Part shown: one piece after another, positions 6,110 to 24,542 of the stretch | Position numbering within the stretch: the stretch's first letter is position 1 | Layout: the number at the start of each line of letters is the position of its first letter | From: a virus | IMG/VR virus record: IMGVR_UViG_3300025889_000902 | Location: 1 to 24,542 of that record | Length of the DNA: 24,542 nt | Direction: 5' to 3' (one strand) | The notes under the pieces: generated by a model | Database searches by the model: none | What the model was told of the DNA's origin: nothing | The model's input: only the letters and a program-made list of their open reading frames with translations | Translations under genes and position numbers: made by a program

Positions 6110-6142
6110 TTTGTGAATAATTAAAATATTTTTATAACTTTG
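6110..6142 (+). promoter_or_regulatory. Bacteroidota housekeeping-type promoter for the early operon
   Basis: TTTG at 6110-6113, a 21-bp spacer and TAACTTTG at 6135-6142 match the TTTG-N19-21-TAnnTTTG consensus. It lies just after a terminator and 32 nt before the start codon at 6175, so it probably drives the first recombination operon through the host primary sigma factor. Confidence 0.75.
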
Positions 6143-6174: not shown

Positions 6175-6375
6175 ATGAATTTATTACAAAGAATGAAGCC
6201 ACATTACAAGCAAGAGCTTGAGAAGTGGAACTTAAAAATTCCAGACTTAGTTGATAGGATCTGTGAAGACTTAGAAAACGAGAGATTTGTTCACAAACTT
6301 AGGTATGAAACAATCATTGACTTAAATTTTGTCTTTGGGAGTTTAGATGCTTTCCAATTTTTTGAAGAGCTATGA
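6175..6375 (+). CDS. Small early protein, function unknown
   Basis: A 66-residue protein is the first gene behind the promoter at 6110-6142, with a 32-nt gap, so it is probably expressed soon after infection. It is predicted helical and mixed in charge (KPHYKQELEKWNLKIPDLV in the first half, DLNFVFGSLDAFQFFEEL at the end). No cysteine cluster, membrane span or nucleic-acid-binding motif is clear. It ends in a 4-nt ATGA overlap with the next gene. First-gene position behind a strong host promoter is common for takeover or regulatory proteins, but nothing in the sequence shows that role here. Confidence 0.6.
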   Translation: MNLLQRMKPHYKQELEKWNLKIPDLVDRICEDLENERFVHKLRYETIIDLNFVFGSLDAFQFFEEL

Positions 6376-6927: not shown

Positions 6928-7230
6928 ATGAGTGCATTAATTAATTTTAGTTTAAATGTAGCAAAGCTACCAAAGGAGAAGTTTATTGCTGGAAAAGATG
7001 GAGCAGTTTACGTAAATCTCACAATGAGCGTCAATGATGAAACAAGATACGGTAATAATGCTGGAATCTATGTTAGTCAAACGCAAGAGGAAAGAGAAGC
7101 CAAAAAACAAAAGACTTACTTAGGCAATGGAAAAGTAGTCTGGAACAATGGTACAATCGTAAACGCAGAGCGTGAAGCAGCTCCAGAAGTTGAAGCATCT
7201 CCACAAGAAGCAGCAGATCTACCTTTTTAA
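6928..7230 (+). CDS. ssb: Single-stranded DNA-binding protein-like
   Basis: The 100-residue protein has a beta-rich body (INFSLNVAKLPKEKFIAG, then VYVNLTMSVNDETRYGN) and a flexible acidic tail that ends DLPF. A short acidic tail ending in a D-x-P-F motif is the hallmark of bacterial and phage SSBs, where it recruits partner proteins. The body is shorter and differs from E. coli SSB, so this is a phage-type OB-fold guess. It follows the putative annealing protein by 11 nt and precedes a strong terminator, closing the operon that begins at 6175. Confidence 0.7.
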   Translation: MSALINFSLNVAKLPKEKFIAGKDGAVYVNLTMSVNDETRYGNNAGIYVSQTQEEREAKKQKTYLGNGKVVWNNGTIVNAEREAAPEVEASPQEAADLPF

Positions 7231-7237
7231 TTTTTAG

Positions 7238-7265
7238 AGGGGAGCTTCGGCTCTCCTTTTTTTTT
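7238..7265 (+). terminator. Intrinsic terminator with UUCG tetraloop after the SSB-like gene
   Basis: GGGGAGC (7239-7245), a TTCG loop closed by C-G, and GCTCTCC (7250-7256) form a 7-bp stem with one G-U pair, followed by nine T. The C(UUCG)G loop is extra stable. It ends the first early operon. Confidence 0.85.
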
Positions 7266-7299: not shown

Positions 7300-8160
7300 A
7301 TGACAGAAAAGGAAACGACAGACAGAATGTTAATGGAGCTAATTAAGGAAGAGTGCGAGGTGGATACATCTCAAACTTTAGATTATCCTCCAACTGCTTT
7401 GAGCTTAGGAAATAAGACAATCCAGACAAAAGCTGGAGAGATAACTTTTCCAGTTCCAATTGGAACGTATGGTAACTTCTCATTTGTTCAAGCTCCACCG
7501 AAGACAAAAAAGACATTCTTTATATCTCTACTTGCTTCAGTTTATTTAAGTGGAGGTAATAATTTTGGTGGTAAAATCTTAGGACACCGAGAGGGAAAGT
7601 GCTTGATTCATTTCGATACAGAACAAGGGCACTGGCATTCACAACGTGTATTCAAAAGGATACTTGATATGGCTAACATGAAAAATCCTGGATGCTACCA
7701 AACTTATGCTTTAAGGACTATCAATTATAAACAAAGAATGGAGTTCATTGAATTCTGCTTGAAAGAAAATGGAGATAAGAATGGAGTTGTTGTAATTGAT
7801 GGAATTGCAGATTTAGTCAGTGATGTAAACAATCTTGAGGAAAGCAATCTCTGTGTGCAGAAAATAATGGAGTGGAGTGCAAAGTTTGACTGCCATATTA
7901 TTACAGTGATACATTCTAATTATGGAAGTGATAAACCGACTGGTCACTTAGGTAGCTTCTTAGAAAAAAAGACAGAAACTCAAATCCAGCTTGAAGCAAA
8001 TACAGTAAACAAGGATTGGATAACAGTGAGCTGTAAACGCTCAAGGGGATATGCTTTTGAAACGTTTAGCTTTAGCATCAATGAATACGGACTACCATTT
8101 GTTGTTGGAGAGATTTATGACCCACTGGAATATTATGTGCCAAAAAAATTAGATATATGA
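7300..8160 (+). CDS. RecA-fold AAA ATPase (RepA/Sak4-like), DNA replication or recombination
   Basis: The 286-residue protein looks like a RecA-type ATPase of the AAA_25/RepA-like group. The P-loop at 65-73 reads APPKTKKTF: the lysine and threonine are kept, but the glycines of the normal GxxxxGK[ST] are replaced, which I recall as common in Bacteroidota phage members. A Walker B strand, GVVVIDG, lies at 162-168 and a sensor-like strand, ITVIHSN, at 201-207. HFDTEQGHWHSQRVFKR at 104-120 is a further family-type stretch. No primase or polymerase is in view, so it may load or move the replication machinery, or act in strand annealing as Sak4 does. The next gene overlaps by 4 nt. Confidence 0.7.
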   Translation: MTEKETTDRMLMELIKEECEVDTSQTLDYPPTALSLGNKTIQTKAGEITFPVPIGTYGNFSFVQAPPKTKKTFFISLLASVYLSGGNNFGGKILGHREGKCLIHFDTEQGHWHSQRVFKRILDMANMKNPGCYQTYALRTINYKQRMEFIEFCLKENGDKNGVVVIDGIADLVSDVNNLEESNLCVQKIMEWSAKFDCHIITVIHSNYGSDKPTGHLGSFLEKKTETQIQLEANTVNKDWITVSCKRSRGYAFETFSFSINEYGLPFVVGEIYDPLEYYVPKKLDI

Positions 8161-8651
8161 AAAAATCCCTTGTTGAAATAGCTTATAATAAACACGAAGA
8201 CTGGATACGGATTGTAAAGTCTTTTGGATGCAACTTCTCAACAGCAGAAGACATTGTTCAAGAAATGTATATACAGCTCCATCTGGATGTTCAAAAAGGA
8301 CTTGATCTTTGGTATGGAGAGGAAGTGAATACATATTACTGTTATAAGGTTTTGAGAGGGATTTATTTAAACATATATAAAAAGGAAGCAAAGCAAATCA
8401 AAATGTATCTTGAAGAGATTAATGAGTTTAAACAAGCGGAGGAGCTCGGAATTGATGAAGTTGAGTATGCGAATAAAAAGAAAAAAATTGACAAGATAAT
8501 GGAAAAAATGTTCTGGTATGATAGGAAAGTCTTTGAGATTTGTGCTTCTGGAAAGAGCGTTGCTGAATTAAGCAGAGATACTAAAATAAGTTACTATTCA
8601 CTTTACAATACATTTACTAACGCAAAGAAATTTATAAAAGACCAGCTTTGA
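8157..8651 (+). CDS. ECF-like sigma factor or sigma-70-type regulator
   Basis: The 164-residue protein has the layout of a small sigma factor. The N-terminal half (HEDWIRIVKSFGCNFSTAEDIVQEMYIQL, about 13-41) matches region 2, with the AEDIVQE motif characteristic of ECF sigma factors. The C-terminal part (KSVAELSRDTKISYYSLYNTFTNAKK, about 133-158) is a region 4-like helix-turn-helix. A lysine-rich linker joins them. It would bind host RNA polymerase core and direct it to other promoters, most likely for middle or late phage genes. It overlaps its upstream neighbour by 4 nt, so its timing follows the ATPase. Its target promoter is not known from sequence. Confidence 0.7.
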   Translation: MKKSLVEIAYNKHEDWIRIVKSFGCNFSTAEDIVQEMYIQLHLDVQKGLDLWYGEEVNTYYCYKVLRGIYLNIYKKEAKQIKMYLEEINEFKQAEELGIDEVEYANKKKKIDKIMEKMFWYDRKVFEICASGKSVAELSRDTKISYYSLYNTFTNAKKFIKDQL

Positions 8652-9070
8652 TTGAGACTTTTAATAGGGATTTAAAAAGAGGGAAATATCATGAGAATGT
8701 TATCCTGGAGGTAATTCAAAAGAAATACCCAAGAGCTTTTATCAAGGATGGATACTGCAAGGAGTATGATATTTTTATCCCAGAGCTTGAAATCGGAGTA
8801 GAAGTGAAGAGTGATGAAAAAAGTAAATTCACTGGTAATATTGTAATAGAGATTGAATTTAATAACAGACCATCTGCATTGAGCACAAGTAAAGCAAAGT
8901 ACTGGGTTATCTTTGATGGATATACTTATCACTGGTTTTTAATAAATCGGATAAAAGACTGCATAAAAGAGAATCATCTCAACTGGGTGGAGTTTATTGG
9001 AAAAGGAGATTCAAAAAGCAAAAAAGCATATTTGATAAAAAAAGAAATATTATATAAATATAAGTTATGA
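8648..9070 (+). CDS. PD-(D/E)XK nuclease-like protein, possible Holliday junction resolvase
   Basis: This 140-residue protein contains a restriction-endonuclease-like core: a helical glutamate (E16 or E21), D41 in EYDIFIP, and E52-V-K54 in GVEVKSD, which together fit the PD-(D/E)XK catalytic pattern. The spacing resembles small resolvases and structure-specific nucleases. The start is a TTG inside TTGA, overlapping the stop of the sigma factor gene by 4 nt; no upstream ATG gives the full fold, and this mirrors the start of the large terminase. It lies with other recombination genes, so cutting branched DNA before packaging is plausible, though not shown. Confidence 0.6.
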   Translation: MIETFNRDLKRGKYHENVILEVIQKKYPRAFIKDGYCKEYDIFIPELEIGVEVKSDEKSKFTGNIVIEIEFNNRPSALSTSKAKYWVIFDGYTYHWFLINRIKDCIKENHLNWVEFIGKGDSKSKKAYLIKKEILYKYKL

Positions 9071-9381
9071 ACAAACAAATAGCTAAAGAGTTAAAAATCT
9101 TCACAGATCAAGTTTGTGAAAGATATTCAAAAAAGGACAGAGCTAAAAACTTTAACAAAGAAACGTTTGAAGTACAAGAAATCATACCAACAAGCGACCA
9201 TACTGCAACTGTTATATATGAAAAGAATACTGGGAAACGTGCTGCATTTTTTTTCTATTATATTCCAGCATTTAAAAAGTGGAATTATTTTGTTCCAACG
9301 GATAGTCACATAAATGGAATGAGTAGTTTTGCGAATCAAAAAATTGAAGTAGAAAGACATAACTATAAATATAATTTTTAA
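9067..9381 (+). CDS. Conserved small phage protein, function unknown
   Basis: A 104-residue protein starts in a 4-nt overlap with the nuclease-like gene. The N-terminus is helical and charged (LKIFTDQVCERYSKKDRAK), and the rest appears beta-rich with many aromatics (HTATVIYEKNTGKRAAFFFYYIP, split over residues 44-67, then FKKWNYFVPTDSHINGM). The DSHINGM segment seems distinctive. I believe similar proteins occur in other flavobacterial phages but cannot name a domain. No membrane span or metal cluster is evident. Its place in the operon suggests a role in DNA metabolism or takeover. Confidence 0.55.
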   Translation: MNKQIAKELKIFTDQVCERYSKKDRAKNFNKETFEVQEIIPTSDHTATVIYEKNTGKRAAFFFYYIPAFKKWNYFVPTDSHINGMSSFANQKIEVERHNYKYNF

Positions 9382-9382
9382 A

Positions 9383-9535
9383 ATGAAGTTAGGAGATTTA
9401 ATGTATTACTTTACTTACTATACTGGTATTCACTGGTTAGTAAAAAAGATAAGCAAAGCAGTTGGAAAAGACTGTGGATGTAATAAGAGAAGAGAAGAGT
9501 GGAATGATATTGATTTGGATTTATGGAACAAGTAG
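9383..9535 (+). CDS. Small CGC-motif protein, unknown
   Basis: A 50-residue frame starts 1 nt after the preceding stop and overlaps the next gene by 13 nt. Its first half is aromatic and hydrophobic (MKLGDLMYYFTYYTGIHWLV), and its second half is basic with DCGCNKRREEWND. I recall similar short proteins with a GI-WLVKK ... CGC-RR pattern in Bacteroidota phages. The following gene has a comparable CGC-x-x-K-R segment. Function is unknown. Confidence 0.5.
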   Translation: MKLGDLMYYFTYYTGIHWLVKKISKAVGKDCGCNKRREEWNDIDLDLWNK

Positions 9536-10132: not shown

Positions 10133-10164
10133 TTTGTCAAAAGTTATTATAAACCCTACATTTG
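10133..10164 (+). promoter_or_regulatory. Bacteroidota housekeeping-type promoter for the second early operon
   Basis: TTTG (10133-10136), a 20-bp spacer and TACATTTG (10157-10164) match the consensus. The next ATG at 10192 lies 27 nt downstream. This also argues against the in-frame TTG at 10162 as a start, because it overlaps the -7 element and would precede the transcript start. Confidence 0.75.
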
Positions 10165-10191: not shown

Positions 10192-10413
10192 ATGAAAGCA
10201 AATTTAACTAAACTAAACAACTTAAAAGAAAAGCTAACAGAAAAGTTAGAAGCAATGGAGTGGGCAATGGACGAAAGGTCAGAAAGATGGCGCGAAAGCG
10301 AAGCTGCTCAAATACACGAGGATAAGATGAACGCTTTAGATGGTGCTATAATGTCAATACAGGATGCTATTGATGAACTATCAGAAGCGTTTGACTTGCA
10401 AGATTTATTTTAA
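10192..10413 (+). CDS. Small helical coiled-coil protein, unknown
   Basis: The 73-residue protein is rich in Glu, Lys, Ala and Leu (LTKLNNLKEKLTEKLEAMEW, then MNALDGAIMSIQDAIDELSE), with a heptad-like pattern that suggests two helices forming a coiled coil. An in-frame TTG upstream at 10162 lies inside the promoter, so the ATG at 10192 is chosen. It is the first gene of the operon driven by the promoter at 10133-10164. No domain is recognised and no binding residues are evident. Being first behind a host-type promoter suggests early expression. Confidence 0.65.
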   Translation: MKANLTKLNNLKEKLTEKLEAMEWAMDERSERWRESEAAQIHEDKMNALDGAIMSIQDAIDELSEAFDLQDLF

Positions 10414-11355: not shown

Positions 11356-11735
11356 TGGATTTATTACAGAATCAAGCTTACAATCTCTGGTTTAATTGGT
11401 TAGCCGACAAGATAATGGAGTGGAAAGATGCAAAGCCACTTAATAAGGATTTAAGGAATTGCGTTAAAGCAATGAATGAAATCGGAATGTTTACTAACAC
11501 ATTAAGAACGGAGCTGGAGATAATGACAAAGAGATACAATCTCATGAGGTCTCAGAAAAATGACGAGATTCAAAACCTTAGAGAACAGATTGAAAACTTA
11601 ACTAATAAATTAAAAAAATACGATATGCACTATATTGATATGCCAGAAGAAACAACTTATTGTAGAACTTGCGACAAGGAAACCGATGGGGATACTTATT
11701 GCTCAAAAAACTGTTACGATTATGATACAGAATAA
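11355..11735 (+). CDS. Coiled-coil protein with C-terminal cysteine cluster
   Basis: The 126-residue protein has a helical N-terminal part with several tryptophans (NLWFNWLADKIMEW), a coiled coil at about 52-90 (EIMTKRYNLMRSQKNDEIQ, then LREQIENLTNKLKK) and a C-terminal cluster CRTCDKETDGDTYCSKNC. The two CxxC/CxxxC pairs could bind one zinc ion. Such small zinc knuckles often mediate protein or nucleic acid contacts. The next gene, a RecE-like exonuclease, starts 14 nt before its stop. A partner role in recombination is possible by position only. Confidence 0.55.
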   Translation: MDLLQNQAYNLWFNWLADKIMEWKDAKPLNKDLRNCVKAMNEIGMFTNTLRTELEIMTKRYNLMRSQKNDEIQNLREQIENLTNKLKKYDMHYIDMPEETTYCRTCDKETDGDTYCSKNCYDYDTE

Positions 11736-12504
11736 AATTACGCTTCTGGATGGGGAGCAATATGACAGAGCCGAGTTGCTCGAAAAAATGGATGATGATT
11801 CTTTCTATTATGGAGAGCTCAACAAACTGGCTTTGAGTAGCAGTAGCTTGAAGCAGATTCTTGCAAGTCCAAAGACTTACAAATATTCACTTGAATATGG
11901 AAGTGAGGAAACACAAGCACTTCGTGATGGATGGTTATTCCACACCGCTATATTAGAGCCAGAGGTTTTTGCAGCACAGACTTTTATTGATGTTCAAAGC
12001 AAGAATACAAAGAAATTCAAAGAAGCAAAACTGAAGCTCGGAAAAGTATTCACTGCAAAAGAGAGAAGTGATGCAGAGCGTTTAGTGGATGCTTTCTTTA
12101 AGAATGAACACGCAAAGGAACTGATCACAAAAGCAGAGTTTGAAGTTCCTGGAATTGATAACATTAAAGGACTACCATTTCGAGGTAAAGCGGATGTTCT
12201 TGCAGATAATAGAATTGTAGATTTAAAGACATCTTCATCAAGCGTTAAGGACTTTCACTATTCAGCACAAAAATATTCTTACGATGTGCAGTGCTTTCTT
12301 TACTGCAATCTATTTAATAAGAAGCATGAAGATTTTTATTTCTTAGTGCTTGACAAAGGAAGTCTTGACATCGGTATCTTTAACTGCTCGGAAAACTTTT
12401 ATTTCAGAGGAGAGGAGAAAGTAGAGAAAGCTCTTAAGTTATATGAAAAGTTTTTCATTGATGGAGCTGACATTGATAACTATTGCTTAACTGGACAATT
12501 ATAA
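11722..12504 (+). CDS. RecE/exonuclease VIII-like PD-(D/E)XK nuclease
   Basis: The 260-residue protein resembles RecE-type 5'-3' double-strand exonucleases, which resect ends to make single strands for annealing. LALSSSSLKQILASP at 36-50 and LRDGWLFHTAILEPE at 67-81 are family signatures (H74, E81). The catalytic core is D158 in RGKADVL, D167-L-K169 in IVDLKT, and Q190/Y194 in QCFLYC. A longer in-frame reading from 11635 overlaps the coiled-coil gene and lacks family features, so ATG 11722 is chosen; overlap is 14 nt. Together with the putative annealing protein and the SSB-like gene it completes a RecET-like set, though split between two operons. Confidence 0.8.
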   Translation: MIQNKITLLDGEQYDRAELLEKMDDDSFYYGELNKLALSSSSLKQILASPKTYKYSLEYGSEETQALRDGWLFHTAILEPEVFAAQTFIDVQSKNTKKFKEAKLKLGKVFTAKERSDAERLVDAFFKNEHAKELITKAEFEVPGIDNIKGLPFRGKADVLADNRIVDLKTSSSSVKDFHYSAQKYSYDVQCFLYCNLFNKKHEDFYFLVLDKGSLDIGIFNCSENFYFRGEEKVEKALKLYEKFFIDGADIDNYCLTGQL

Positions 12505-13274: not shown

Positions 13275-13892
13275 ATGAAAATAACAAATGAAGATAACAT
13301 GGAACTAATGGCAAGGTATGAGGATAACTACTTTGACCTTGCTATTGTAGACCCACCTTATGGTATTGGAAATTTTAACCACAGAGATAAAGGTGTTAAA
13401 TGGGAATATGATTGGAACAACAAAACACCAAATATTGATTATTTTAAAGAATTAGAAAGAGTAAGTAAAGAACAAATTATATGGGGTGCTAATTATTATA
13501 ATTGTTTTAATAATAAAGGTGGTGCAATAGTATGGTATAAAGATGTGAAACACCCAAATATGAGTAAATGTGAAATTGCAAGTTATAGTAGGTTAAAAAA
13601 GGTGGATTTTTACAGATATGATTGGAGTAATACAGATAGATACAATGAATTAAATAAAAAAGATTTTGATATTCACCCTTGTCAAAAACCTGTTAGTCTT
13701 TACGAATGGCTTTTAATGAACTACGCAAAGGAAGAAGATAAAATACTTGATACGCATTTGGGTAGTGGCTCAATAGCAATAGCTTGTCATAATTTAGGAT
13801 ATGATTTAACAGCTTGTGAACTTGACAAAGAGTATTACGAAGCAGCTATGAAACGAATAGAGCAACACAAAGCACAACAAAGGTTATTCTAA
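13275..13892 (+). CDS. DNA adenine methyltransferase, beta-class-like order
   Basis: The 205-residue protein carries the catalytic motif DPPYG at 26-30 near its N-terminus and the SAM-binding motif ILDTHLGSGSIAIA at 157-170 near its C-terminus. That motif order, with HPCQKP at 134-139 between, is typical of beta-class N6-adenine or N4-cytosine methyltransferases; DPPY favours adenine. No restriction enzyme is adjacent, so it is an orphan, perhaps shielding phage DNA from host restriction. It follows the DnaA-like gene by 1 nt, yet its glycine codons (6 GGT, 2 GGA, 1 GGC) match the structural genes downstream rather than the replication genes upstream. Confidence 0.85.
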   Translation: MKITNEDNMELMARYEDNYFDLAIVDPPYGIGNFNHRDKGVKWEYDWNNKTPNIDYFKELERVSKEQIIWGANYYNCFNNKGGAIVWYKDVKHPNMSKCEIASYSRLKKVDFYRYDWSNTDRYNELNKKDFDIHPCQKPVSLYEWLLMNYAKEEDKILDTHLGSGSIAIACHNLGYDLTACELDKEYYEAAMKRIEQHKAQQRLF

Positions 13893-13906
13893 AAAAATAT
13901 AATTCT

Positions 13907-13918
13907 GTTTATATATTA
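13907..13918 (+). promoter_or_regulatory. A/T-rich motif upstream of terminase genes, possible late promoter element
   Basis: GTTTATATATTA here is identical to 15787-15798 upstream of the tail chaperone, and similar to the sequence before the prohead protease. No host-type TTTG/TAnnTTTG pair is present. It lies in the 57-nt gap before the small terminase gene. In such A/T-rich DNA the match could be chance. Confidence 0.3.
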
Positions 13919-13949: not shown

Positions 13950-14222
13950 ATGGACAAAAGAAGATTTAATAAAGGTACTAAAGGGAATAAAGGCGGTAGA
14001 CCAAGCAAAGCTGCCGAGCATAAACTTATAGAACGCTTAGACGCTATAATAGACAAAGACGAAGCATTGGCAAAGTTAGGCGAGTTAGTACATAAAGGTG
14101 ATATGAGAGCTTTACAACTATATTTAGGGTATAGGTATGGTAAACCAAAAGATAGCGTAGATATAAATAGTTCAGAGGGTTTAAATATTAATTTTAGAGA
14201 TTTATTAAAGTTCGTTGATTGA
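13950..14222 (+). CDS. terS: Putative small terminase subunit
   Basis: The 90-residue protein is short, basic at the start (MDKRRFNKGTKGNKGGRPSK) and helical in the middle (HKLIERLDAIIDKDEALAKL, then LYLGYRYGKPKDSVDI). KGNKGGRPSK is a common N-terminal segment of small terminases in Bacteroidota phages, and the gene is directly before the large subunit with a 4-nt TTGA overlap. It would recognise the packaging start site on the concatemer. Small terminases usually run to 130-180 residues, so this one is at the low end; the DNA-binding helix is not clearly resolved by eye. Context carries most of the weight. Confidence 0.65.
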   Translation: MDKRRFNKGTKGNKGGRPSKAAEHKLIERLDAIIDKDEALAKLGELVHKGDMRALQLYLGYRYGKPKDSVDINSSEGLNINFRDLLKFVD

Positions 14223-15427
14223 TTGAGGTTAAGAAAAAATATATGCCTATTGTACAAAGCGATAGTAGGTATTTTATAGTTAGTGGTGGGCGTGGTAGTG
14301 GTAAGTCGTTTTCTATAAATGCTTTATTAGTAATGCTAACATACCAAGCAGGACACACTATACTGTTTACACGCTATACATTAACTTCTGCATATATTTC
14401 AATTATACCTGAATTTATAGACAAGCTAGAACAGTTTGGGTCTATAGAGCATTTTCATATAACCAAAGACGAAATACTAAACAAAAAGACAGGTAGCAAA
14501 ATAATATTTAGAGGTATTAAAACTTCAAGCGGAGACCAAACCGCTAATCTAAAATCATTACAGGGCATTACAACGTGGGTTGTTGATGAAGCTGAAGAAC
14601 TAACAGACGAGCAAAAGTTTGATACTATTGATTTATCTGTAAGGGAAAAAGGACTACAAAACAGGGTTATACTAATACTAAACCCAACTACTAAAGAGCA
14701 TTTTATATATAGACGTTTCTTTGAAGATAGGGGTATTCAAGAGGGTAGCAATATAACTAAAGGCAATACTACCTATATACACACCACATACAAAGACAAC
14801 ATAGACAACCTATCTAAAAGCTATATAGAGCAGATAGAACAAATGCGAGAACGCAGACCTGAAAAATATAAACAACAAATGTTAGGTGCGTGGTTAAACA
14901 AAGCAGAGGGTGTAATATTTGATAATTGGACTATAGGCGAATTTAAACGCAATAGTGTAAGCGTTTGGGGTCAAGATTACGGATTTGCAGCAGACCCAAC
15001 AACACTAATAGAAACAAACATAGATACAAGCACTAAAACAATATACTTAAGGGAATGTGTATACCTACCTAGATTAACTACTTCACAAATAGCTGAACTT
15101 AATTTAAAACACGCTAGAGATGGTTTAATAATAGGTGATAGTGCTGAGCCTAGACTAATAACAGAAATAAAAGCAAAGGGGTGCAATGTACTACCATCAA
15201 TTAAAGGTCAAGGTAGTGTTACTTATGGTATATCACTATTACAAGATTATGATTTAGTGGTAAGTCCTGATAGCACTAATTTAATCAAAGAACTTAATAA
15301 CTATCGTTGGTTAGAACGCAAATCAAATACACCAATAGACAAATACAACCACCTTATTGATGCGGTTAGGTACGCAGTAGGTTATCAATTACAAAACCCA
15401 AATAGAGGAAAATATATAGTTCACTAA
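14219..15427 (+). CDS. terL: Large terminase subunit, Terminase_3 family
   Basis: The 402-residue motor protein pumps DNA into the prohead and cuts it. Walker A is GGRGSGKS at 23-30, Walker B TTWVVDEAEEL at 118-128 with the catalytic Glu after D123, and the coupling segment LILNPTT lies at 152-158. The nuclease domain shows D253 in GQDYGFAADP, D307 in IIGDSAEP and D381 in YNHLIDAVRYAV, a full acidic triad. It starts at TTG within the stop of the small subunit; the first ATG, eight codons later, would clip an N-terminal strand I expect in this family. The length fits the Terminase_3/3C type seen in headful-packaging phages. Confidence 0.95.
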   Translation: MIEVKKKYMPIVQSDSRYFIVSGGRGSGKSFSINALLVMLTYQAGHTILFTRYTLTSAYISIIPEFIDKLEQFGSIEHFHITKDEILNKKTGSKIIFRGIKTSSGDQTANLKSLQGITTWVVDEAEELTDEQKFDTIDLSVREKGLQNRVILILNPTTKEHFIYRRFFEDRGIQEGSNITKGNTTYIHTTYKDNIDNLSKSYIEQIEQMRERRPEKYKQQMLGAWLNKAEGVIFDNWTIGEFKRNSVSVWGQDYGFAADPTTLIETNIDTSTKTIYLRECVYLPRLTTSQIAELNLKHARDGLIIGDSAEPRLITEIKAKGCNVLPSIKGQGSVTYGISLLQDYDLVVSPDSTNLIKELNNYRWLERKSNTPIDKYNHLIDAVRYAVGYQLQNPNRGKYIVH

Positions 15428-15476: not shown

Positions 15477-15509
15477 TTTGTTTATAATTAAAATAATGTT
15501 GTATATTTG
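15477..15509 (+). promoter_or_regulatory. Bacteroidota housekeeping-type promoter after terL
   Basis: TTTG (15477-15480), a 21-bp spacer and TATATTTG (15502-15509) match the consensus. It precedes a small gene at 15541 by 31 nt. This 373-nt gap between terL and the tail genes holds only the promoter, the small gene and a terminator. Confidence 0.75.
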
Positions 15510-15540
15510 TAATGTAAAACAATAACAAAAACTAAAAATT

Positions 15541-15714
15541 ATGAACAAAGAACAAGAATTTTTCAAAACACTTTCTAATATGCTTAAGGATTACACTTTT
15601 GATATAGAATATAATGCTGAAGAGCGAAATCCTACACCTACACAATTCAGCAGAGCAAACATAAAGATGATTAGAGCAGCTAAATTATTATTAGAAGCTA
15701 AACAAGAATTATAA
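15541..15714 (+). CDS. Small monocistronic protein, unknown
   Basis: A 57-residue frame has its own promoter (15477-15509) and terminator (15738-15764), so it forms a one-gene unit set between packaging and tail genes. The sequence (MNKEQEFFKTLSNMLKDYTF, then NIKMIRAAKLLLEAKQEL) is helical and charged. The isolated, host-promoter-driven arrangement inside a late region is typical of added small genes ('morons') or of regulators. No motif is recognised. The regulatory signals on both sides make the coding call stronger than its length would. Confidence 0.65.
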   Translation: MNKEQEFFKTLSNMLKDYTFDIEYNAEERNPTPTQFSRANIKMIRAAKLLLEAKQEL

Positions 15715-15737
15715 TAAAAACACAAAACAAACACAAC

Positions 15738-15764
15738 ACCCTTGCAAAACGCAGGGGTTTTTTT
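15738..15764 (+). terminator. Intrinsic terminator of the small unit
   Basis: CCCTTGC (15739-15745) pairs with GCAGGGG (15751-15757) with one G-U pair, around a five-base loop, with an extra A-T pair outside and seven T from 15758. It separates the small gene from the tail operon. Confidence 0.85.
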
Positions 15765-15780
15765 ATGCCTAAAATTATTT

Positions 15781-15800
15781 AAAAACGTTTATATATTAAT
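15781..15800 (+). promoter_or_regulatory. A/T-rich element directly before the chaperone start
   Basis: An A-run, then C, then GTTTATATATTA runs directly into the ATG at 15801. The same 12 bases occur at 13907-13918, and a close relative at 23735-23754 also abuts an ATG. It may be a late promoter giving a nearly leaderless message or an A/T-rich translation enhancer. Confidence 0.3.
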
Positions 15801-16445
15801 ATGAATGTTAATTTAAGAATACCGACAACCCTAAACGAAATAACACTAGGGCAATACCAAGAATACGCAAAGTTGCAGGACTTAACAGAAACAGACCTAC
15901 AACTAAAGACTATTGAAATATTTTGTAACGTTCCTGAAGTAGTAGTAAGGAATATGAAAGCAACTGATATAGTAGAAATATGTGGTATCATAAATAATAT
16001 GTTTGATACTAAGCATCAACTTATATCTATGTTTAAAATGAATGGTGTGGAATATGGGTTTATACCAAGTCTTGAAGATATGAGTTTTGGTGAATATGTA
16101 GACTTAGATACTTTTATAGGTGATAACGATAATTTGCATAGAGCAGTAAACGTACTATACAGACCTATAGAACACCGCAAAGGCAATAGATACACTATAA
16201 AGGACTATGAGCCTAACAATAGCGAAATAGCAAAGGATATGCCTTTAGATGCGGTCTTAGGTGCGGTTGTTTTTTTTTACAATTTAGGCAGGGACTTATC
16301 ACTAGTTATGCTGAACTCTTTGGACAAGAAGAACGAGCAGACCTTAGCGGAGTATCTAACTTCACAACCAAATGGGGGTGGTACAATTCAATCTATGGAC
16401 TATCTAACGGAGATATTACAAAATTTGAACATATCACTAAACTAG
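15801..16445 (+). CDS. Tail assembly chaperone, zero-frame product
   Basis: The 214-residue protein is recognised as a flavobacterial-phage tail assembly chaperone-like protein: IPTTLNEITLGQYQEYAKLQ at the start, IFCNVPEVVVRNMKATDI at about 50-67, NGVEYGFIPSLEDMSFGEY at about 84-102, and MPLDAVLGAVVFFYNLGRDL near 149-168. Chaperones of this kind coat the tape measure before tail-tube polymerisation. A second open frame (-1) overlaps its end and continues to 16531, so a longer frameshifted form is likely, as in lambda G/GT. It is the first gene of the tail operon. The name rests on recall of the family and on the frameshift layout. Confidence 0.65.
   Translation: MNVNLRIPTTLNEITLGQYQEYAKLQDLTETDLQLKTIEIFCNVPEVVVRNMKATDIVEICGIINNMFDTKHQLISMFKMNGVEYGFIPSLEDMSFGEYVDLDTFIGDNDNLHRAVNVLYRPIEHRKGNRYTIKDYEPNNSEIAKDMPLDAVLGAVVFFYNLGRDLSLVMLNSLDKKNEQTLAEYLTSQPNGGGTIQSMDYLTEILQNLNISLN
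16271..16277 (+). other. Slippery heptamer for probable -1 ribosomal frameshift
   Basis: T TTT TTT sits in the correct phase of the zero frame (GTT TTT TTT TAC), inside a run of nine T at 16270-16278. Slipping one base back joins the chaperone to the -1 frame ending at 16531. A less favourable X XXY YYZ site, A AAT TTG, lies at 16421-16427. Confidence 0.65.
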
Positions 16446-16531
16446 GTGTACACGAGTGCTTAACATACTTAACATACACAAAAGAAAAAAACGAATTAGA
16501 AGCAAGACAAATAAAAAGTAAATTTAAATAG
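16277..16531 (+). CDS. Frameshift extension of the tail chaperone (GT-like domain)
   Basis: The -1 frame is open from 16223 and contains no ATG before its TAG at 16529-16531, so it needs a ribosome to enter from the upstream frame. After the slip at 16271-16277 it gives 84 residues, for a product of 243. The content looks coding: ELFGQEERADLSG, then KWGWYNSIYGLSNGDITKFE, ITKLGVHECLTYLTY, and KEKNELEARQIKSKFK. The 55 zero-frame residues that it replaces also look like family sequence. By the lambda G-T model, the extension would bind tail-tube subunits while the shared part binds the tape measure. The next gene begins 7 nt after this stop. Confidence 0.65.
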   Translation, partial: LQFRQGLITSYAELFGQEERADLSGVSNFTTKWGWYNSIYGLSNGDITKFEHITKLGVHECLTYLTYTKEKNELEARQIKSKFK

Positions 16532-16537
16532 CATAGA

Positions 16538-17011
16538 ATGAGCCAAACAGGGATAAGAGGTTTTTACCTACTAACAGAAACTATAAAAGACCAACTACTA
16601 GGCGATGTAAATGTTAATACAGTTACTACAGGCGATATATACGATATAGACCTAGCAAAGCAAAGTATATTTCCTTTGAGCCATATTATAATTAATAGCG
16701 TGAGTACACAAGAACAAACATTAACGTTTAATATTAGTGTACTAGCAATGGATATAGTAGATGAAAGCAAAGAAGCTACAACCGATATATTTAGAGGTAA
16801 TAATAACGAGCAAGATATACTAAATACTCAACTAGCAGTACTTAATAAACTTGTTATGGTGCTTAGAAAGGGTACGCTATATAGCGACCAATACCAATTA
16901 GATGGTGATGCTACACTAGAGCCTTTTTATGAAAGGTTTGATAATCGTTTAGCAGGTTGGAGTGCTACATTTGATGTGTTTGTTAAAAACGATATTGATA
17001 TATGTGCGTAA
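16538..17011 (+). CDS. Conserved tail-module protein, possible tail terminator or completion factor
   Basis: The 157-residue protein has FYLLTETIKDQLLGDVNVNTV at 9-29, GDIYDIDLAKQSIFPLSHII at about 32-51, FNISVLAMDIVD at about 63-74, DILNTQLAVLNKL at about 92-104 and FDNRLAGWSATFDVFVKNDI at the end. I recall this set of motifs from many flavobacterial phages, always among tail or neck genes, usually without a named function. Size and location suit a tail terminator or head-tail connector. It begins just after the frameshift stop and its end is overlapped by 10 nt by the homing endonuclease gene. The exact role is uncertain. Confidence 0.6.
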   Translation: MSQTGIRGFYLLTETIKDQLLGDVNVNTVTTGDIYDIDLAKQSIFPLSHIIINSVSTQEQTLTFNISVLAMDIVDESKEATTDIFRGNNNEQDILNTQLAVLNKLVMVLRKGTLYSDQYQLDGDATLEPFYERFDNRLAGWSATFDVFVKNDIDICA

Positions 17012-17568
17012 AAAAGGTTGTATATAGACATAGAAGATTAGATGATAATTCAATATTTTACATTGGTATAGGTAATAGTAAAAGACCGTATTGTAAACAC
17101 GGAAGAAATACGCATTGGAATAGAATAATAAAAAAAACTGATTACAAAGTAGAAATAGTAGCTAATGATTTAAGTTTAGAAGATGCTTGTGAATTAGAAA
17201 TGTTTTTAATATCAGAATATGGTAAAGAAAATTTAGCTAATATGAATGATGGCGGAGATGGTCAATTTAATCCTGATGAATTAACAAGATATAAAATAGG
17301 TTCTGCTAATAGAGGGAAAAAATTAAAAAAAGACCATAGAGATAAAATATTTAAATCTAATAAAGGAAAAAAACACAATAAAAAATCTTTATACACTATG
17401 AGTTTGAATAGTGGTGTTTCAAAATGGGTTGTTGATTTAGAAACAGGAATTTTTTATCATTCTTTAAGATATGCTTGTAATGTTAATAATATAAAGTATA
17501 ATGCAGAACATTTACGAATAACAAGATATAATAAGAATTACAGATTTAAATATTTAAAAGAATGTTAG
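17002..17568 (+). CDS. GIY-YIG homing endonuclease with NUMOD3-like motifs
   Basis: The 188-residue protein has the GIY-YIG core: VYRH at 7-10, FYIGIG at 19-24 in place of the second motif, R28, and a catalytic Glu in DACELEMFLISEYG (E66). The NMNDGGDGQF turn at 80-89 is usual for this group. Two NUMOD3-like repeats follow (YKIGSANRGKKLKKDHRDKI at 97-116, and SNKGKKHNKKSL at 119-130), and a C-terminal part (YHSLRYACNVNNIKY) that resembles a DNA-contact helix. It is more lysine- and A/T-rich than its neighbours, and is set between two tail genes with overlaps of 10 and 7 nt. It is a selfish element; a tail role is unlikely. Confidence 0.8.
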   Translation: MCVKKVVYRHRRLDDNSIFYIGIGNSKRPYCKHGRNTHWNRIIKKTDYKVEIVANDLSLEDACELEMFLISEYGKENLANMNDGGDGQFNPDELTRYKIGSANRGKKLKKDHRDKIFKSNKGKKHNKKSLYTMSLNSGVSKWVVDLETGIFYHSLRYACNVNNIKYNAEHLRITRYNKNYRFKYLKEC

Positions 17569-23720: not shown

Positions 23721-23734
23721 ATACAAAAATTAAT

Positions 23735-23754
23735 AAAAAACATTATATAATAAT
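23735..23754 (+). promoter_or_regulatory. A/T-rich element directly before the protease start
   Basis: An A-run, C, then ATTATATAATAAT leads into the ATG at 23755. It resembles 15781-15800 in base order and in distance to the start codon, but differs at several bases. No TTTG/TAnnTTTG pair is present. Confidence 0.25.
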
Positions 23755-24542
23755 ATGCGTATAGTAGAATTAATTTTAGACGAAGAACAAGAAATAGGTA
23801 TTGAAGCTATTAGCGTAGTTGAAAACCCTGCAATAGAAGAAGATTTTATAGCTTTAAAATCACAAGAATTTAAACTAGCTGAAGTAGACAAAGAAAAACG
23901 TATCTTAATGGGTGCGCTATTAATACCTAACAAGCCTATATACAGACGTAATGGCGAAGATGAGTATTATATATATTTTTCAAAAGATACTGTATTAAAA
24001 GCTAGTCAAATGTACCTGATGCAAGGCAAACAAAACAATTCTACCTTAGAACACCAATACCAAATTAACGGACTATCATTAGTTGAAAGTTGGATAGTAG
24101 AAGATAAGGTACACGACAAGAGTGTTAAGTATGGTATGGATTTACCATTAGGCACGTGGGTTGGAAGTGTTAAGGTCAATAACGAAAACATTTGGAACGA
24201 GTTTGTTAAAACAGGTAAAGTAAAAGGGTTTAGTATAGAGGGGTATTTTGCTGATAAAATGGAACGCCCACAGGAAAAAATAAACGACTTTAGTAGTGAT
24301 GAACTATTAAAAGAAATAGACCAAGAGGAAGCGGAATATTTATTGAGTGAGATACGAGCCATTATAAAAAGCGACAAGCGTGTAAAGGGTGGTAAAAAAA
24401 TGGTTTTAGAAAGCTATTCAGACTATCCAAGTGGTGTTAAGAATAACGCTAAAAGAGGTTTAGAACTTAACGAAAAGGTAAACAACAAATGTGCAACCCA
24501 AGTTGGTAAAATACGAGCGCAACAATTAGCACAAGGCAAACC
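23755..24542 (+). CDS. XkdF-type prohead serine protease (3' truncated)
   Basis: At least 262 residues are visible before the window ends. The N-terminal part (VELILDEEQEIGIEAISVVE, ENPAIEEDFIAL) and the centre (STLEHQYQINGLSLVESWIV at 96-115, GLSLVESW; WVGSVKV, KVKGFSIEGYF at 155-165) match the putative serine protease XkdF, peptidase family S78_2. The likely catalytic pair is H100 and S160. From about 221 a second domain begins (YPSGVKNNAKRGLELNEKV, then CATQVGKIRAQQLAQGK), often fused to such proteases in Bacteroidota phages. The enzyme would trim scaffold and capsid proteins in the prohead, so portal and capsid genes should be next. Confidence 0.8.
   Translation, partial: MRIVELILDEEQEIGIEAISVVENPAIEEDFIALKSQEFKLAEVDKEKRILMGALLIPNKPIYRRNGEDEYYIYFSKDTVLKASQMYLMQGKQNNSTLEHQYQINGLSLVESWIVEDKVHDKSVKYGMDLPLGTWVGSVKVNNENIWNEFVKTGKVKGFSIEGYFADKMERPQEKINDFSSDELLKEIDQEEAEYLLSEIRAIIKSDKRVKGGKKMVLESYSDYPSGVKNNAKRGLELNEKVNNKCATQVGKIRAQQLAQGK

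Follow-up and report, generated by a model that had tools for sequence, protein, structure and literature searches.

A divergent ECF-type sigma factor and candidate late promoters in a marine Bacteroidota virus

What is known of phage-encoded sigma factors comes largely from work on phages that infect Enterobacteria and Bacillus. In the gp55/gp33/gp45 system of T4 a late sigma factor operates on the host core polymerase and uses an AT-rich -10 sequence; gp55 lacks region 4 and needs a clamp and a co-activator. According to passages of one report (PMC8948821), the late sigma factor gp47 of Salmonella phage 7-11 works with the host core polymerase at bipartite late promoters of the form GTAAtg-(16)-aCTA, while gp36 of phiEco32 serves middle and late genes through the host core at the single-element promoter tAATGTAtA, its region 4 being described there as without homology.

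Here we describe a protein encoded in a 24,542-nucleotide stretch of viral DNA (IMG/VR record IMGVR_UViG_3300025889_000902; hereafter the window). Like T4 gp55, it is predicted to be a late sigma factor acting at an AT-rich -10 region, but it has a modelled sigma4 domain, and so falls outside a class marked by the absence of region 4, and its candidate promoters carry an upstream box. With 7-11 gp47 it shares its phage origin and bipartite promoters before late genes, the elements in the window being read from sequence; 7-11 differs in its own consensus, in being an enterobacterial phiEco32-like phage and in that the passages cited state no fixed register of the ATG. Although gp36 is likewise a phage sigma factor, the window protein is set apart from it by the modelled sigma4 domain and the bipartite element. 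The window phage resembles the gp47 and gp36 kind in that a distinct class of sequence elements precedes its late genes. The kind is known; what appears to be new is the lineage, together with its types of promoter and the fixed register of the start codon; titles and abstract openings among the matches listed from the open-licence literature contained no report of these late promoters. We consider it very likely that the phage sigma factor redirects host RNA polymerase to late promoters.

The predicted sigma protein and its genomic setting

The features of this region are as follows.

8157 to 8651, + strand: putative phage sigma factor gene, encoding an ECF-type two-domain protein of 164 amino acids
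Layout of the protein: sigma2, residues ~1-80; linker, residues 81-104; sigma4, residues 105-164
7236 to 7259, + strand: intrinsic terminator dividing the SSB-like gene from the sigma-containing operon (7300 onward)
9383 to 9535, + strand: gene for a conserved 50-amino-acid CGC-motif protein, downstream of the sigma gene

The sigma ORF is intact, starts with ATG and overlaps its upstream neighbour by 4 nt. Relatives are encoded by at least 589 of 599 pattern-matched viral stretches (the best 80 of these were retained), which argues against a chance ORF. Among NCBIfam models the protein matched TIGR02985 (E=5.2e-8, residues 17-164, 33.3 bits against a curated cut-off of 126.4) and the sigma70-ECF model TIGR02937 (E=4.6e-7, residues 14-164, 29.6 bits against 42.9). 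As both scores lie below the cut-offs the protein is not filed in either group; judged by these matches it is a divergent relative of both, outside the named groups themselves. The match to Pfam Sigma70_r2 (E=0.03, 14.5 bits) is likewise below its gathering threshold of 24, and this model was matched at E<=1 by 36 of 48 family members (best 2.4e-5). The PHROG family 'RNA polymerase sigma factor' (phrog_1740) was matched at E<=0.1 by 46 of the 48 (best 4.1e-8). Across the 48 aligned members the residues E31, D32, V34, E36, M37 and Y38 of region 2.2 are invariant; in region 4, conservation of the stretch YYSLYNTY is complete or at least 90%. We take the AEDhVQE-type motif to be the conserved core-binding region 2.2 of the sigma70 family.

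An AlphaFold2 model built from the 48 aligned sequences had a pLDDT of 82.7; a single-sequence fold was poor (51.6) and was not used. Foldseek placed the ECF sigma factors SigH and SigL among the top PDB matches (best E=3.3e-3, probability 1.00), with no match at E<=0.001. The modelled sigma2 domain aligned with SigR (1h3l_A; Z 9.2, rmsd 2.6, 71 aligned) and the sigma4 domain with SigL (3hug_E; Z 9.5, rmsd 1.8, 65 aligned), values that are not proof, as a Z below ~13 can mean little for helical proteins. The predicted architecture, sigma2 and sigma4 without sigma1.1 or sigma3, is that of an ECF factor, and the NCBIfam matches span the same stretch. When a viral structure library was searched with the model, ranks 2 and 4-7 were named phage sigma factors, for example that of Cronobacter phage GAP52 (K4F9S8, E=0.017). 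Sequence searches of the PDB returned nothing significant (SigH, E=0.97), and no cultured phage record was matched at E<=1. A scan of bacterial genomes (GTDB) revealed no close copy, only one weak relative of 25% identity in a sediment Bacteroidetes MAG (L143, 10001-10402).

It could be argued that the sub-threshold Pfam and NCBIfam scores, and the matches of 20 of the 48 members to the plain helix-turn-helix model HTH_26 at E<=1, reflect a DNA-binding regulator that is not a sigma factor and works with the host holoenzyme, for which we take the ArpU- and RinA-like late activators as the model. This is very unlikely given the invariance of the region 2.2 residues, the modelling of both sigma domains and the lack of a strict host-type site at the late operons of the window. 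The first-pass annotation had called the gene an ECF-like sigma factor and had named a structure lacking sigma folds as the outcome that would speak against it. The sub-cut-off NCBIfam matches, phrog_1740 in the relatives, the invariant region 2.2 and a predicted model with both sigma domains all bear out that identification.

Flanking the sigma gene are an AAA_25 ATPase gene (7300-8160) and an ORF (8648-9070) that is weakly nuclease-like (ScaI-type, E=0.023); an exonuclease VIII-like gene (11713-12504) lies in the same region. Gene 6928, which by its look we take to be SSB-like, has the phrog category unknown, and the terminator after it has a similar stem and T-run in many relatives. The 50-residue protein fits the pattern LGD..YY.TYYTGI.W.VKK...DCGC.KRR..WNDI. 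Downstream sequence was sufficient in 77 loci: its gene comes immediately after sigma in 41 of them and is separated from it by an inserted stretch in 31; the same search did not find it in five of the 77, and four further contigs end there. In the window two ORFs at 8648-9381, the first being the nuclease-like one, separate the two genes, and since 41 of the 77 loci have no insert there this stretch is a variable slot. A CGC..R motif similar to that of the 50-residue protein was observed in the ORF at 9523. The protein is a possible partner of the sigma factor or the polymerase.

Host-type sites and a repeated element in the window

In the parts of two reports that describe it, the Bacteroidota sigmaA promoter has the form TTTG/TAnnTTTG (PMC6847099, PMC9723704). 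A strict scan for TTTG-N17-21-TAHHTTTG found exactly three sites on the + strand of the window (200 shuffles: mean 0.29, maximum 2) and one on the - strand, at 2347. The + strand sites are:

6110 to 6142, + strand: host-type (Bacteroidota sigmaA) promoter of the early operon at 6175, TTTG ... TAACTTTG
10133 to 10164, + strand: host-type promoter-like site before ORF 10162, whose first in-frame ATG is at 10192
15477 to 15509, + strand: host-type promoter of the isolated gene 15541, from the strict two-box scan

The site at 6110 has counterparts before many homologues of gene 6175, 18 of them strict. Only the two-box pattern stands out: a generic sigma70 TTGACA/TATAAT scan was uninformative (83 found, 88.8 expected), as was the bare TAnnTTTG box (39 found, 39.9 expected).

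The late genes to which the scan bears, and the elements found before them, are:

13950 to 14222, + strand: terminase small subunit-like gene (terS), DUF5681-like, just under the Pfam cut-off
14219 to 15427, + strand: terminase large subunit (terL), Terminase_3, phrog_2
15801 to 16445, + strand: first gene of the second late operon; weak tail-protein match, E=0.013
23755 to 24542, + strand: XkdF-type prohead protease, Peptidase_S78_2 E=1.7e-14, running off the window
13889 to 13918, + strand: predicted late promoter 1; CTAAAA 13889-13894, GTTTATATATTA 13907-13918, terS ATG 13950; matrix score 42.3
15769 to 15798, + strand: predicted late promoter 2; CTAAAA 15769-15774, GTTTATATATTA 15787-15798, ATG 15801; matrix score 41.7
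23723 to 23752, + strand: predicted late promoter 3, degenerate; ACAAAA 23723-23728, CATTATATAATA 23741-23752, protease ATG 23755; matrix score 11.6

No strict host-type site was found in the window before the terminase, the 15801 gene or the protease. The strict scan agrees with the earlier count of three host-type promoters, described there as lying before small early or isolated genes, and with their absence before the terminase, the 'tail chaperone' (15801) and the protease.

The terminase operon and gene 15801 are instead preceded by a bipartite element, YTAAAA-N12-GTTTATATATTA, whose exact 12-mer occurs twice in the window (13907 and 15787). Scores are from a matrix trained on 29 sites of relatives, the window being left out, which 100 shuffles reach with at most 11.6. 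The protease copy is weak, as its score equals this largest shuffle value; the equivalent place scores 13.4-17.6 in five relatives. Outside late genes the window has one match, at 6139 (10.7), inside the 6110 host-type promoter, and the matrix scan found no late element before the sigma gene, which sits in the early/replication region. Enrichment is confined to exact copies of the 12-mer or copies with the upstream box; with two mismatches allowed the 12-mer was not enriched (15 found, 13.25 expected). It should be emphasized that the element patterns were refined after the sequences had been seen.

Some other features of the late region were observed. Gene 15801 has a T-rich run near its end and an open extension past its stop (16262-16530), a combination known from tail-chaperone frameshift genes. 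The stretch 15477-15758 holds the isolated small gene 15541 together with a host-type promoter of its own and a terminator (15738-15758); it is placed between terL and the 15801 operon and resembles a moron cassette. ORF 17002-17568, which sits between two late genes, is by its look presumably a GIY-YIG homing endonuclease; a 44% relative lies in L077 at 1648, just downstream of the sigma and 50-residue genes.

The element and the sigma factor across relatives

The 42 loci with the closest (A) sigma type (432,117 bases) contain 28 exact copies of the 12-mer, all on the late strand and none on the other; these loci are related and partly overlapping (L021, L089, L129 and L168 are from one contig), so that counts are not independent. 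The reversed pattern is absent, and 20 shuffles gave a mean of 0.25 and a maximum of 1. None of the 28 copies lies inside an ORF, although ORFs cover ~87% of the sequence (overlaps counted; these tests take ATG ORFs on the site's own strand). Alignment of 25 distinct sites revealed a second box 18 nt upstream of the -10 block (C in 18, T in 20 and AAAA in all 25), the AAAA having played no part in choosing the sites, and a conserved RTA just downstream of the element.

Applied to five relatives (G001-G005), the matrix picks out five late operons in every one of them. They comprise the operon on the terminase side (terS, a second terS type or a ParB-like gene), those of 15801 and of the protease, that of an MNTNDM-type gene, inferred from its position to be scaffold-like, and one in which a portal protein is encoded by the second gene. 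An ORF of at least 45 amino acids overlaps one of these 25 late sites (L089, protease). Off-late matches comprise the 6139 counterpart in two relatives, inside the host-type promoter, and two sites in L008: that at 7180 (21.0) precedes a homologue of the NinG-like gene 5568, whereas that at 7614 (13.3) has no ORF. The L008 site at 7180 is the one clear match outside late operons among the five; P12024-like or B-pattern matches were also seen before 5568 homologues in L052, L065 and L067.

A motif-first scan of IMG/VR with YTAAAA-N12-GTTTATATATTANTA returned at least 120 stretches, 110 of them new. The new stretches listed contain 135 sites (111 distinct contexts), none inside an ORF. Among these listed matches 83 sites precede 15801 homologues, 39 terS and seven the second terS type; three more lie before unlabelled genes and three have no ORF. 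The sigma gene is present in nine of the 14 listed contigs of at least 16,998 bases, once as a partial gene at a contig end, and was not seen in the other five; these may be fragments, because all 14 are classed as linear.

The position of the start codon is regular. Counting from the first -10 base, the ATG lies at +14 in 48 and at +26 in 35 of the 83 listed sites before 15801 homologues, and the 25 late sites of the five relatives place it at +14 (18 sites), +26 (five), +16 (one) and +42 (one). For the ATG to remain on the mRNA, transcription has to start at that codon or immediately upstream, and the mRNAs of many late operons are thus probably leaderless or nearly so. Such a start would make the spacing to CTAAAA shorter than is usual for -35 and -10 boxes, and box spacing and ATG position give no single clean -35/-10 register. 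Leaderless mRNAs make up 5.5% in F. psychrophilum, according to one section of PMC9723704. At many operons the element stops 2 nt short of the ATG, and one copy lies beside terS, which could instead suggest a translation-start signal or a packaging or replication element. This is extremely unlikely, as the distance to the ATG varies between genes (14, 26, 28 or 40-50 nt) and the element occurs on a single strand, has a second upstream box and stands before five late operons in every one of the five relatives.

A 15801 homologue is present in 72 loci, 36 of which also carry a sigma gene on the same stretch. In all 34 of these that belong to the three main types (A-C) promoter type equals sigma type, across three terminase types, as follows.

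Sigma A: [N]TTTATATAWWA in 24/24 loci (terminase type 1 in 12, type 2 in 11, none found in one)
Sigma B: CG[TA]TATATA in 7/7 loci (terminase type 1 in four, type 3 in three)
Sigma C: AACTATATA in 3/3 loci (terminase type 2)
Sigma D: two loci, one with CGTTATATA (B-like) and one fitting no pattern

The 36 loci without a sigma gene comprise 33 with the A-type element, two that are unreadable (L119, L137) and Nonlabens (Persicivirga) phage P12024L, which has none of the three forms. Before terS (21 rows) the types agree in 9/9 A and 10/10 B rows (L011 with one mismatch), and neither form matches the sigma D row (L079) or P12024L; the 14 rows listed with terL only gave five A-type elements, eight without a match and one unrelated match (L073). 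Where the terminase is common (72-82% identical) but the sigma factor differs the promoter differs, and where the sigma factor is common but the terminase is not the promoter is common. The A and B elements are mutually exclusive. The A pattern occurs 33 times on the + strand and never on the - strand of the 42 A loci, and is absent from 26 B stretches. The B form with an ATG at 12 nt occurs seven times and never, respectively, in 22 B loci (20 shuffles: mean 0.1, maximum 1), with five more copies in further B-genome stretches and none in A loci. Without the ATG the short B pattern is loose (107 sites, 44 inside ORFs and seven before non-late or unlabelled early genes). Late-type control of the sigma operon itself was considered and dropped, as the matches before the 7300 homologue in L070 and L078, both C-type phages, run through the T-run after the terminator.

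Across the types the -10 block changes, but the upstream box remains close to (C)TAAAA. Identity between types is 0.65-0.76 in the region 4.2 recognition helix (A-B 0.76) and 0.37-0.40 in the 2.3/2.4 helix (A-B 0.38). The parallel between a kept 4.2 helix and CTAAAA box and a divergent 2.3/2.4 helix and -10 block is only suggestive, because region 2.1 is also well kept (0.60-0.67). Since sigma type tracks overall lineage too, promoter type could in truth correspond to another co-inherited trans-acting factor, or to the host.

The nearest cultured relatives by terminase are flavobacterial phages (P12024L, 54%); this match led to P12024. P12024L gp35 matched the sigma family profile (hhalign probability 96.8, E=3.1e-10, 20% identity) and, below cut-off, ECF models; gp35 and P12024S gp33 are annotated as 'containing Sigma-70 region 2'. 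Parts of one report place both P12024 phages in a marine viral group of 161 genomes (PMC5332604). Their element is a TAAAACA-like box ... CGTTAATA before late operons. In P12024L the box and CGTTAWTA precede six operons, mostly structural, and the ATG follows the C at exactly 12 nt, as in all seven B forms at 15801. CGTTAWTA-N4-ATG occurs there seven times on the late strand and never on the other (shuffles 0.02 and 0.05); six copies lie among the upstream regions viewed for 39 of the 58 annotated genes, and the seventh (28798) is intragenic. Without the ATG the pattern is less striking (9 and 3, shuffles 1.9 and 2.8). P12024S has six and none, five of the six at annotated starts and one intragenic; gp01, given with these matches, carries a one-base variant. 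The full pattern is absent from Riemerella phage RAP44, where tblastn searches using gp35 and a B-type sigma as queries detected no homologue. Thus P12024L/S resemble the window phage in a distant sigma homologue, a repeated element of their own and a fixed ATG distance, and differ in the form of the element and in the position of the sigma gene shortly before the terminase genes; no element was seen upstream of P12024L terS/terL. An exact GTTTATATATTA at P12024L position 44, without a spaced box, was treated as chance.

Passages of PMC9723704 describe flavobacterial SM6 promoters of a host ECF sigma regulon with CGT in the -10 region. This CGT is common to most B, one D and the P12024 forms, while the A form before terS is TGTTTATATATTA. 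The CGTT (in B sometimes CGAT) of the former could indicate that a host ECF sigma factor recognizes the late elements and that the phage protein acts otherwise, for example by competing with or inhibiting a host sigma factor. We judge this unlikely: 129 of the 135 motif-first sites (matches listed) lie before late genes of the family of the window phage, and element type follows phage sigma type at 34/34 loci of types A-C.

A proposed late switch

Recognition by the phage sigma factor is the reading that we prefer. Host RNA polymerase with the host primary sigma factor would transcribe the early operon from TTTG/TAnnTTTG sites. The small ECF-type sigma factor, encoded in the early/replication operon, is expected from its fold and conserved region 2.2 to bind host core polymerase, and would steer it to the (C/T)TAAAA box and GTTTATATATTA -10 region before the late operons. 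The putative targets are the terminase, 15801 and protease operons and, in relatives, also the scaffold-like and portal operons. With many late start codons 14 nt after the first -10 base, the fixed spacing suggests leaderless or near-leaderless mRNA; the timing of sigma action and leaderless translation are presumed steps. The proposal of the first-pass annotation that the sigma factor could direct late transcription, drawn from the lack of host-type promoters, has gained support, while still an inference, from three findings: a phage-specific element stands before the late operons, it is confined to late genes in the motif-first scan, and its type goes with sigma type independently of terminase type.

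More tentatively, marine Bacteroidota phages of this large group may possess orthogonal, lineage-specific sigma/promoter pairs, with promoter and start codon in one ~35-40 bp cassette and many of the late operons translated from leaderless mRNA, a possibility that we hold with less than moderate confidence. The window is from a marine virus of Bacteroidota-type bacteria, and its sigma factor very probably switches on the late genes for packaging, head and tail. The setting is phages of a phylum with unusual promoters and translation signals of its own, and here a sigma factor, its likely regulon and the natural variants of both can be read from sequence. Specificity can be tested directly with these natural sigma/promoter pairs, from which expression tools for flavobacteria could be developed.
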